64,000 bases of DNA from Candidatus Altimarinota bacterium (GTDB lineage Bacteria; Patescibacteriota; Gracilibacteria; BD1-5; UBA6164). The first letter of the stretch is position 1. Every line of letters starts with the position of its first letter. This document shows positions 7,562 through 15,050 of the stretch, piece after piece. The stretch lies in contig JAQVFO010000003.1 of NCBI GenBank assembly GCA_028697205.1, positions 1 to 64,000 of the forward strand, read 5' to 3'. The translations under genes and the position numbers were made by a program. The notes beneath the pieces are model-generated. The model was not told the DNA's origin. It saw only the letters and a list, made by a program, of their open reading frames with translations, and searched no databases.

Positions 7562-10500
7562 ATGCTCAAAAAATTTATATCTATCATACTTATCTATACT
7601 ATTTCTTTTTCAAATATTTCGCCTCTTTTCGCCGACAACTTAACTATAATTCCAGACTTAATCATTTCATTTCAAAATCCAAGTTACCTAACTGATAAAA
7701 ATCAAATTCTTGATATTTATAATTGTGACTCAAGTAAAACTGAGTGTAAAGTAAACTTTGACTTAAGAGATACTTTTTGATGATATATTTGAACTGACTT
7801 TGCTTGTGAAAATACTTTTCCATTTACAACTTGAGAAGAAACAAATTGTAATCCTAATACTATAATCTTTCCTACTTGAACAAGTGAAGTAAGATTTAAA
7901 ATATATGAAGTTGCAAACCCAAGTAACTTCAAAGAAAAAGTAATTAATATTGTAAATACTTCTATAGATTCTGGATTAAGTCAGGAATGACAAAATAGTT
8001 TTGAAAGTTGAAGTACTGATACAAATTCATGAACAATAGATTTCACTGATACTTGAAGTTTAGATACTATTTCTGGAAGTTTAACAGAAAGTTGAAGTGT
8101 TGATTTTTGAAGCTGAAATATTGATACAAGTAGCTGAATTTTAGATTGAAGTTGAACCACTGATAGTAATTCATGAAGTCTAAGTGAATTATGAACAACA
8201 TCTGAAAGCTGAACTTTTGACAATTCAATAAATTCCAAAATACAATCTAGTTTAGAGATACCTGATGTAGAAATAGAAATCCAAAGTTGATTAGAACTAA
8301 TTGATTGAATTTATAATTGTAAAAATGTAGAATGTAAACTAAATCTAAATCTGGAAAATCTTTTCACATGAACATATAGTGCATCAAACTATGCTTGTAG
8401 TTGGAACTTTTGAAGTTGAACTTTTACAACTATTGATACAGACAAAAAATGTAATCCATGATACATAAATTATAGTACTTGAAACTATGTAATTGAAGCT
8501 AAAATTTATGAGAAAAACAATGAATTAAATTTTAAAACTTGAAGTTTGAGTTTTGTAAATTGAATAGAAATTGTTACTAATTATGAAAGCTGAGTTTTAG
8601 ATTGACAGGATAGTATCAAAAATACTGAAACAAGTTCAGGATGACAACTTATTAATTTTCCAGAAATAAAAATATCTTTTCAAAATCCTTCATATTTACT
8701 TGATAAAAACTCAGAATTGGAAGAGTTTATTTGTGATACAAGTAAAAATGATTGTAAAATAAACTTTGATTTAAATGAAAGTTTTTCATGATTTACAAGT
8801 TCAAATTATGAATGTAGTATAGATTTTCCTTTTGATTCAACAGAAAAAGAAAAATGTAATCCAAACACAATAACTTTTCCAGTTTGAAAAACTGAAGTAA
8901 ATTTTAAAATATATGAAATAACTAATCCAGATAATTTTACTACAAAAGTTATTTATATAAATAATACTCAACATACATTATCATTATGATGAAATAATAT
9001 TTGATGATGAAGTTTTTGAGGAAGTTCTAACTATCTAATTCCTCAAAAAGAAATAATTCTACAATCATGAGCATCAAAAGATATATACTGAAATTTTATT
9101 TGTTATGATGAAAAATGTAAAATAAACTTACAATATGAAAATTCATCAAATGAGAATTGTATATGGAACTTTGCTTGATGAGAGTATAAAGAAAATTACA
9201 CTAGTACATGTAATCCTTGATATATTTATTATTTGCCTTGAAATTATGAAGTAAGCTTAAAAATATATAGAAATTGAAATCTAGCTGAAGAAAAAAAAGT
9301 AAATATAGAAAATAGATTTAAATGAGAAAATTTAGAAAATGTTAAAAAACCAATAGCAAAAATAAATCTACAATGAATAATCTCAAAAAACAAAGAAATA
9401 AGTTGAAATAAATTAACTTGTAAAAACTCAGAAACTTGCTCAGTTAACTTAACAAGTGAAGAAAACGATAAAAATTTTACATATCTATGGGATTTTTGAA
9501 ACTGAGAATTTAGTGATACTTCAAATCCAAAAAGCATAAATTATACTCCTTGAAAATATAAAATAACTCTAAAAATAACTGATAAACTATGAAATTCAAG
9601 CTTTGATTATTTTTATATTGAAGTATTTGAAAAAGAGCAAGAAGTACTGACTATTAATAGTGATATACTAAAATATATTCAAATTATTGAAACTCTTCCA
9701 AACCCAGTTTGAAAAGAGGACTGAGAATGGATAAAAATAAAAAATAATTCAATAAATTTTATAAATATAAAATGATTAGAAATAGATGATGTGATTTGAA
9801 GCTGAAGTAAACCTTATAAAATTACTGAAAATACAATAATACTTCCATACCAAGAAAAAAAGTTTTATAAAACAGAAACAAAGATAAATCTAAACAATAG
9901 TTTTGATGAAGCAAATTTAATTTACAATTGAAAAGTTATAGATTCTTTAGTTTGGAATTATGAAGTTCCTGAATGATTTATTGTAAAAAAAGACAAAAGT
10001 AGAGAAAAGGTAAAAGTTGAGAGTGTTATTGATTGAGACACTATTGTTATAAGATTTAAAGATTGAACAAAAGAAAAACTTAGACTTATATGAGTTGATA
10101 CTCCTGAAACAAAGCATCCAATAAAAAAAGTAGAATTTTTCTGAAAAGAAGCATCAGAATTCACAAAAAATAATCTACTTTGAAAAGAAGTAGAACTAGA
10201 ACTTGATATTGATAACTATAGAGATAAATATGGAAGATTACTTGGCTATATATGGGTTGAAAACAATCTATTCAACAAACTTTTAATAGAAAAATGATAT
10301 TGAAGAGCTTATTTGTATTTTCCTTTTAAATATAGTGCAGATTTTGCAAAAGTTGAAAAAGAAGCTAAAAATAATAAGTTATGAGTTTGGTGAGATGAAG
10401 AAGTAAAAAACGAAATGTTAAATTTAGAAAAATATGATGAGAAAGAAAAAGATTTTAAAAATCTAAAAAAGGAAGAAAATTTAAAATTTGAAGATATTAT

Positions 10501-11179
10501 TTCAAAGGTAAGTAATTTATTTGAATGAAATTATAATAAAACTTCTACATCAAATGATGAAAAACAAACATTTTGATTATTAAACATAAGTTTTTGGCAA
10601 CAAGAAAAATTAAGTGAAAAAGAATTAACAAAAACATTTAATTTGCTTTTAAATGATTTACAAGATTGAAATCCAAATCCTAAAATAATTACATATAAGA
10701 CTTCAAAATTGAAATCAGGATTAAAAATAACATGAAACACATTTCCAAACTCACAAATAACATTAATTTTTGAAGAAAGTGAACTAAAAACTAATTCAAA
10801 TGAAACTTGAAATTATATTTTTTTAATTACAGATAACCTAAAAGTATGACAACATAATATACAATTTTTAGTTTCAAATTGAGAAGAAAATTATAACTAT
10901 GAAGTACCTAAAACTATAGACTTAACAAAAGAATATATTTATGATTTACAAGACTATAAAGTAAAACAATTAAATAAAAAAGTAACATCAAAAAAAACTA
11001 CTACAAAAAATAAACTATTAGCAAAATGAGTTACAGAAAAAAGTTTAAAATTTAATATTGAAAATACAAAAAATGAAGTTTCAAACAATGAAACTTCAGA
11101 TAATAAGTCAATAATAATATTTTTAATAATGTTACTTATTTGAATTTTATGAGTAGTTTTAATTAATAAAATAGATTAA
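7562..11179 (+). CDS. Surface-anchored multidomain protein with PKD-like repeats and a thermonuclease domain
   Basis: A 1205-residue protein. Residues 1-25 are a signal peptide (ending LFADN). Residues 30-690 hold several beta-rich modules: two begin with SFQNPSYL (about 36 and 374), others resemble PKD domains with Cys pairs (WDFGNGEFSDTSNP near 640). A Gly/Ser/Thr linker lies at 143-230. Residues 700-800 resemble a lamin-tail domain. Residues 815-950 are a staphylococcal-nuclease domain: VIDGDTIVI, RLIGVDTPETK and YGRLLGYI supply the calcium-binding and catalytic Asp, Arg and Glu. A transmembrane helix (IIIFLIMLLIGILGVVL) ends the protein. It would hold a secreted DNA/RNA-cutting enzyme at the cell surface. 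Confidence 0.88.
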
Positions 11180-13207: not shown

Positions 13208-13257
13208 ACATCATTTTTCACTAAATTGTAATTGAAAGATAAAACTTTTCATAAATA

Positions 13258-13366
13258 AAAAATATGCTCTGTGAAACTGACTCAAACTTACCACCGCTTC
13301 AGGAATTTTTAAGGGGATGAAATCCTTTAAATTCTTTTGTTACTTTTAGAGGGGAAAGTAAGGATA
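13258..13366. ncRNA. Candidate structured RNA next to the reverse transcriptase gene
   Basis: This stretch has no ORF, is clearly richer in G and C than its surroundings and can fold into at least two good hairpins. One pairs GAATTT with AAATTC around 13303-13333, with an inner GGAT/ATCC helix closed by GAA. The second pairs TTACTTT (13340-13346) with AAAGTAA (13355-13361) around a TAGAGGGG loop. It begins directly after the RT stop codon (on the RT strand) and ends before a terminator. Many defence RTs work with a neighbouring non-coding RNA. Strand and exact ends cannot be decided from sequence alone. Confidence 0.4.
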
Positions 13367-14995
13367 CTAAAAAGAAATATCTGTTTGAAACTTTTTTCAA
13401 TTTAATCTATCAAGAATAATTAAATTGAAAAAAGAAATATTATTATTTAATAAATAGTTATAAAAATCAAGATATTCTATTGGGGAATAACTATTGTAAC
13501 CATTAGCATATTTCTTAGTAAGTCTATAATATTCATATATAAGAATCCAATTTTCCCTTTCATCAATTTTACCTATATATTTATTAAAACTAAATAACGA
13601 TATATTATTTATATATGAGTAATTTAATGCTAAAAGAATTGGAATTGTATCATTCTCTTTAATTAAATTATCTCTAATATTTGTAAAATTATTAATCTTA
13701 ATTGAATATTTAATTGCTAAATATATACTCCAAGTTAAAGTATCTGAGCGATGAAATTTTAAGTGTTCTTTAATGATTCAGTTTAAAAACTTCTCAACTT
13801 GTTCAGTAATTTTATGAGCATATGCAATTGATGAATATCACTTTTCAATAAAAGAATCTAATGAATCAATTAAATATGGGTGAATAAAAGTAATATTTAG
13901 TATATATTTTAGAATTTTAATGTAACTTTCATCATCTATAGAATTTATTTTATTTAATGATTTTATAGCAAACTTAAAAGGTGAATATTCATCACTTTTA
14001 TTTGATAAATCAACAGCATAATCTAAATAATTTAATAAACTATCTATATTTTCATAATCAACTTTTTCTGGAATGTTATAATTGTTTAATTTTGAGTATA
14101 CTAAATCATTTAATTCTTGTGGCAATAATTTTATAAATGTTTTTTTAGTATTTATTGTAAGATTATACTTTTCAAGTTCATGACTCAAATCTTGAATAAA
14201 TGTCTCTGCTTTTTGTTTATTATCACAATAACATTTATAATCATCTATATATCTGATAAAATTGTAACCTTTTTTTATTAATATATTATCAATCCTAGAT
14301 AATATAATTTCAGATATTAAGTTTGATGTATCTGGTCAAATAGAAATTCAATTAGTTTCATTATTTTTAATCATCCTAATTGCTTTATCTAATTTATTAT
14401 ACCATAATTTTTTATTATTAGAGTTATTCTTTGCTATATCTTTTCAAACAATTGCCCATGGAATTGAATGCGTATAAATACTTGAAAAAAAATTTGCAAT
14501 ATCACTAACCACAATATATTTTTTAAGAAATTGTTTATCAAGAATAATATTATTACTATTACTATTTCATCTATTAATAAGAAGTCTAAATTCATCTGTT
14601 TCTACCTCTATATTATAATTTCTTAAAAAAATAAGCCTTTCTTCATCATTATCTTTTAGTGTAATCATTGAAGTATCCTCATAAGAATCATAATCATTTA
14701 ATATTAATGAAGATATATTTTCCCAATTTTCTTTAATTAAACTACATAAATTTAGGTAAACTAAAGGATTAGGAATTTGTAAATATCTAGGGGCATTATT
14801 ATTTCTAGTAAGTTTGTAATTTACAGGAAAAAATACCATATCTTTTGTAATTTTAAATGCTTTGTTTACTGAATCGCTTAGTACTAAGTATCTAAATCAA
14901 CTTGAATTAAATATTGGATCTAATGATTCTGGAAACATTCAAAATCAAATTAATTTATCAAAAACAATATCTGATGTAAGATTTTTAAATCACAT
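13367..14995 (-). CDS. Reverse transcriptase of the Abi/DRT (unknown-group) type
   Basis: A 542-residue protein. RT motif A is VVSDIANFFSSIYTHSIPWA (about 175), motif B GISIGPDTSNLISEI (about 228), and motif C FIRYIDDYKCYC (about 257) with the catalytic YIDD. The YTHSIPWA and GPDTS forms are those of the AbiA/AbiK/Abi-P2 and other defence-associated RT groups rather than group II introns, retrons or DGRs. From about 330 to the end it consists of alpha-helical repeats, as in Abi-type RTs. It stands alone: no intron, maturase, Cas1 or target gene is seen beside it. Such RTs give phage resistance, some by making non-templated or RNA-templated DNA. A structured non-coding stretch follows the stop. 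Confidence 0.85.
13391..13434. repeat. 16-bp perfect inverted repeat inside the RT 3' end
   Basis: CTTTTTTCAATTTAAT (13391-13406) is the exact inverse complement of 13419-13434, with 12 nt between. It lies in the last 22 codons of the RT gene. It lacks a U-tail after either arm, so it is not a plain terminator; it may be an RNA structure at the RT mRNA 3' end. Confidence 0.7.
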
Positions 14996-15020: not shown

Positions 15021-15050
15021 AAAAATCCCCCAATAAATTGGAGGATTTTT
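15021..15050 (-). terminator. dnaK: dnaK terminator
   Basis: Stem 15021-15034 with 15037-15050 (one A/C mismatch), rich in G-C pairs at the core, ending in a T-run on the - strand just after the dnaK stop. Confidence 0.85.

Follow-up and report, generated by a model that had tools for sequence, protein, structure and literature searches.

An intact, divergent DRT4 (UG15) reverse transcriptase gene with TGA-encoded glycines in a code-25 candidate-phylum bacterium

DRT4 has been described as a single-gene, tyrosine-primed and template-independent polymerase, the random single-stranded DNA (ssDNA) of which turns toxic when it is protected by phage ORF55 (reviewed in PMC13213688 and PMC13314766), and this phage protein reportedly activates DRT6 as well (PMC13213688). 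Protein-primed, template-independent synthesis is also known from AbiK and AbiP2, and in AbiK the helical domain occupies the place of the template strand (PMC9508834). The gene considered here, on the minus strand at 13367..14995 of the window (the whole 64,000-nucleotide stretch of DNA that was analysed), encodes an intact, divergent member of DRT4 (UG15); the family is known, while the host and the recoding are new. With the solved DRT4/UG15 proteins (PDB 21ou, 9vdo, 9vdv and 9l9s) it has in common the single-gene layout, a reverse transcriptase (RT) domain joined to a helical-repeat domain, the catalytic Asp triad, the tyrosines that are invariant in the DRT4 clade, and the clade and fold themselves. 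It differs from them in being about 28% identical and TGA-recoded, in scoring under the NCBIfam cut-off and in residing in a reduced Patescibacteria-type lineage, and it carries an extra insert of about 14 residues near aa 130-146 compared with most relatives. With this gene, a defence polymerase of resolved mechanism is now also recorded from the code-25 branch of the candidate phyla.

The source organism belongs to a code-25 group, in a class that also includes genomes with TGA-less RT genes. Read with code 25, the ORF comprises 542 aa, contains 11 in-frame TGA codons and ends with a TAG stop, whereas the code 11 reading yields a longest piece of just 116 aa. Thus, it takes TGA as glycine to keep the frame open over all 542 codons, in line with the original prediction of an RT in a code-25 bacterium. 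TGA encodes 11 of the 14 glycines, a share similar to that in the other genes of the window (1001/1196, p = 0.71), 48 of which hold these 1001 in-frame TGA codons. Three glycines of the active region (G184, G216 and G220) are encoded by TGA, and the corresponding positions are Gly in 30/30 aligned DRT4/DRT6-clade proteins for G216 and G220 and in most of the 30 for G184. Because homologues conserve glycine at these positions, the code-25 reading is backed by homology and amounts to more than an open frame. A tRNA-Gly(UCA) was sought in the draft genome (G000), but none of its 29 tRNA genes has the anticodon UCA, so the code assignment rests on the genes of the window and on the conserved positions. 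With active-site glycines rewritten to TGA, such genes are fragmented by standard-code annotation and are missed.

Profile searches place the protein in the UG/Abi class, as had been proposed when it was called DRT/Abi-like, and together with trees and the predicted fold they sharpen this to DRT4/UG15. Pfam RVT_1 matches it at E 1.8e-12, the PADLOC profile Drt4 scores 413 bits (aa 5-524), followed by Drt6 (306), UG30 (218) and AbiK (143), and the E value against the solved UG15/DRT4 chains is 3.5e-50. By a wide margin, the best NCBIfam family is also Drt4 with 369 bits, under an equivalog cut-off of 450 bits that is one library's naming threshold and denotes no biochemical trait; given this score, 'divergent DRT4' is the proper wording. 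In two trees, one of them a maximum-likelihood tree, the protein lies inside the DRT4 clade with the UG15 protein from the PDB (support 99/100 and 100/100), on a fairly long branch (0.83-0.94) and away from group II intron, retron and diversity-generating (DGR) RTs. Its sister group consists of four Bacteroidota DRT4 proteins (Salibacter halophilus, L001; G914, G983 and G784; support 98/94 and 99/97), which are 37-42% identical to it end to end and are single genes too in the stretches read, but which use the standard code and have no TGA glycine. Among the sampled genomes, its closest kin are in Bacteroidota; the survey went into depth for Patescibacteria, Bacteroidota, plasmids, phages and viral contigs only, and the sampling of donors is limited.

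An AlphaFold2 model (m5727bd10acec) built from 22 sequences reached a pLDDT of 82.6 and a pTM of 0.85, superseding a poor earlier model from two sequences (pLDDT 46). Its best match is the UG15 crystal structure 9l9s (TM 0.77 over 546 columns), the next ones being DRT4 9vdo (0.76), DRT6 (0.75) and AbiK (about 0.75), and TM drops to about 0.3 for AbiA, DRT9, DRT2, retron, group II and DGR RTs. With values of 0.77, 0.75 and 0.75, the predicted fold by itself does not part DRT4 from DRT6 or AbiK. DRT6 indeed resembles our protein in fold and architecture, but it trails in the PADLOC scores, forms a separate clade and for the most part does not have the Tyr127 motif discussed below. AbiK, AbiP2 and UG14, as class 1 UG RTs, belong to the same class as our protein, but give far lower scores and fall into separate clades. 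The model also contains the predicted helical-repeat C-terminus, an alphaRep-like domain whose helices would extend from about aa 314 to 530 (13406..14056, minus strand). Identity as a group II intron RT (54 bits against a cut-off of 300), a retron RT (St85, 37 bits against 235) or a DGR RT was rejected by profile, tree and fold.

The three motifs on which the original prediction was built are all present on the minus strand. YTHSIPWA occupies aa 174-181 (14453..14476), where Y174, H176 and W180 do not vary among 30 proteins; GPDTS lies at aa 220-224 (14324..14338) and starts with the invariant, TGA-encoded G220; and the catalytic motif YIDD at aa 249-252 (14240..14251) contributes D251 and D252, the pair that is changed to Ala in PDB chains 9luj and 9vdv, the latter deposited as catalytically inactive DRT4. 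Asp165 (14501..14503, minus strand), the first metal-binding Asp of the palm, is invariant in 30/30 DRT4/DRT6-clade proteins. The catalytic triad D165/D251/D252 is intact in this RT and invariant in the clade alignment, and far from having been lost in relatives, the catalytic residues persist in every full-length relative of the alignment. By analogy with Tyr44 of AbiK (PMC9508834), Tyr127 (14615..14617, minus strand) is a candidate for the DNA-priming tyrosine. It is invariant in 14/14 DRT4-clade proteins, most DRT6-clade proteins do not have it, and in the predicted model it borders a loop of low confidence. Since Y80 and Y487 are likewise invariant in the DRT4-clade proteins covering those positions, Tyr127 should be taken as a lead.

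What the protein does in the cell may be proposed from its family. We consider it probable that the product of the gene is a defence polymerase of the DRT4 (UG15) kind that acts solo, needs no RNA cofactor and confers abortive defence through random ssDNA. The palm/fingers domain, fused to the helical-repeat domain, would work without an RNA cofactor, presumably assembled into a hexamer as in other members of the family, and would prime DNA synthesis on its own tyrosine, with Tyr127 as the best candidate. Its product would be random ssDNA made with no template. In uninfected cells, exonucleases would clear this product, while upon infection a phage DNA-binding protein might shield the 3' end of the DNA, such that toxic ssDNA builds up, the infected cell stops and its kin are spared. 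That the protein acts in defence at all is an analogy with its family, and other fates of such a gene have to be weighed.

It is possible that a polymerase derived from DRT4 has been kept for a role other than phage defence, such as DNA synthesis linked to stress or to housekeeping. The gene follows dnaK in the same orientation, 61 bp away, has a codon usage in full agreement with that of the genome, and lies outside any defence island: within about 12 kb (20 neighbouring genes), no known defence system was found besides a surface protein with SNase and LTD domains, the sole PADLOC match among these neighbours (PDLC01096, 7562-11179) and a weakly relevant one. The gene had indeed been predicted to lie away from known defence cassettes. 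Against another role speaks a strong terminator-like hairpin (15021..15050, minus strand; fold z = -4.0) that fills most of the 61-bp gap 5' of the RT gene and parts it from dnaK. Moreover, what lies 3' of dnaK varies from species to species, and the RT gene is missing from the four other species of its genus and occurs sporadically in the class, as an accessory defence gene would be. We therefore regard a role outside defence as unlikely. The hairpin was left unflagged by a simple terminator scan, and the surface-type protein at 7562-11179 is 1205 aa long, with PKD, LTD and staphylococcal-nuclease domains.

A second scenario is that the gene is a passenger in slow decay, its activity already lost. 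Decay is seen in related genes, since the one relic in the family, found in a different genus (G031) and closest to this RT, is a C-terminal fragment with two TGA and one TAA inside, and a DRT8-type RT in G005 is frameshifted. Our ORF, however, is full-length and has kept all invariant catalytic residues while 11 of its 14 Gly codons became TGA, indicating that selection has acted on the protein since its arrival; to us, a decaying passenger seems improbable. The G031 relic (L052 9059-10560, the C-terminal part of a DRT4) adjoins a recombinase-like fragment and an apparent tmRNA, a neighbourhood that suggests an integration site. The G005 gene (L051 8567-12458) contains TGA codons and is followed by a 627-aa gene.

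The defence polymerase proposed above would act without RNA, and it could be argued that an adjacent RNA has been overlooked and that the enzyme is RNA-templated, as a class 2 DRT, retron, group II intron or DGR RT. A dispersed, non-coding intergenic repeat does lie directly 3' of the gene (13213..13364, minus strand), but copies of it occur in two sister species without the RT (G003 and G004), which speaks against an RT-specific ncRNA; the repeat is no more stably folded than shuffled sequences (z = +0.5), an Rfam search returned no family at its gathering score, and the fold sides with UG15 rather than with the RNA-templated RTs. An RNA-templated enzyme is thus very improbable. The cis-encoded structured ncRNA of the class 2 DRTs (DRT2, DRT3a and DRT9) is not seen at this locus, which has instead the single-gene layout without ncRNA that characterizes DRT4. 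The description as stand-alone holds, and the gene is the only RT in its genome. The repeat measures about 130-150 bp, contains small hairpins and has partial copies elsewhere in its own genome, along with seven matches in G003 (78-86%) and one long match in G004 (86%). In G003, copies flank a 377-aa gene (with a weak match to sigma-70 region 2) after dnaK, and one copy follows dnaK at the equivalent place. Finally, although the draft genome consists of 19 contigs, a contaminating contig or assembly artefact is refuted in practice by 11 in-frame TGA codons at the rate of the neighbours, by dnaK on the same contig and by the synteny of the genes 5' of dnaK with the sister species.

The gene does not look like a recent arrival, a possibility that was rejected as its codon use and TGA share match the genome. 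GC and GC3 are also typical of the genome, indicating that the acquisition was not recent, and a share of TGA among the glycine codons like that of the other window genes points to a long stay in the genome during which the active site was kept. Nor does it share ancestry with the RTs of G666, G663, G428 and G497 from the same class, as AU tests reject grouping with the DRT6-type (p 8e-11) or the UG14/AbiP2-type RTs (p 1e-58). The notion that defence RTs are rare in such bacteria stands insofar as they are uncommon, but they are not unique: 13 of the 353 genomes of the class have matches at E<=1e-10, among them TGA-recoded UG14, AbiP2 and DRT8 RTs, and the classified ones are of types other than DRT4. 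DRT6-type RTs occur in G666 and G663, and AbiP2-type RTs in G497, where the gene is TGA-recoded, and in G036, where it is nearly TGA-free. The latter (G036:C26; L050, 3.7 kb; 591 bits) contains no more than one in-frame TGA, its neighbours are free of TGA in a family that uses code 25, and the contig may be a contaminant or the gene newly arrived. The TGA-recoded UG14 RT of G428 (L099 3116-12126; 576 bits) lies among apparent type I restriction-modification subunit genes, judged as such from sequence starts alone. Within a literature coverage that was incomplete, defence RTs of the code-25 branch of the candidate phyla turned up in no publication.

How a DRT4 reached this lineage may be linked to its phages. 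CRISPR spacers of Bacteroidota match some putative Gracilibacteria phages (PMC10746230), and the Bacteroidota kinship of the RT fits an exchange via shared phages or hosts; transfer by way of shared phages is thus a route that can be tested. Searching Cas1 in the RT's own genome yielded none. A more daring scenario, to which we give a small chance, is that DRT4 crossed the code boundary to serve as a solo defence in a Cas1-less lineage, and that its trigger changed, becoming tuned to code-25 phages or to phages that link code-25 hosts with hosts using the standard code, for instance Bacteroidota. Single-query searches of viral contigs returned no direct relatives, and a search with an alignment gave 32 loci, none closer to this RT than the Bacteroidota proteins. 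Two of the viral contigs (L124 and L127) carry a DRT4 that is nearly identical to the solved UG15 protein.
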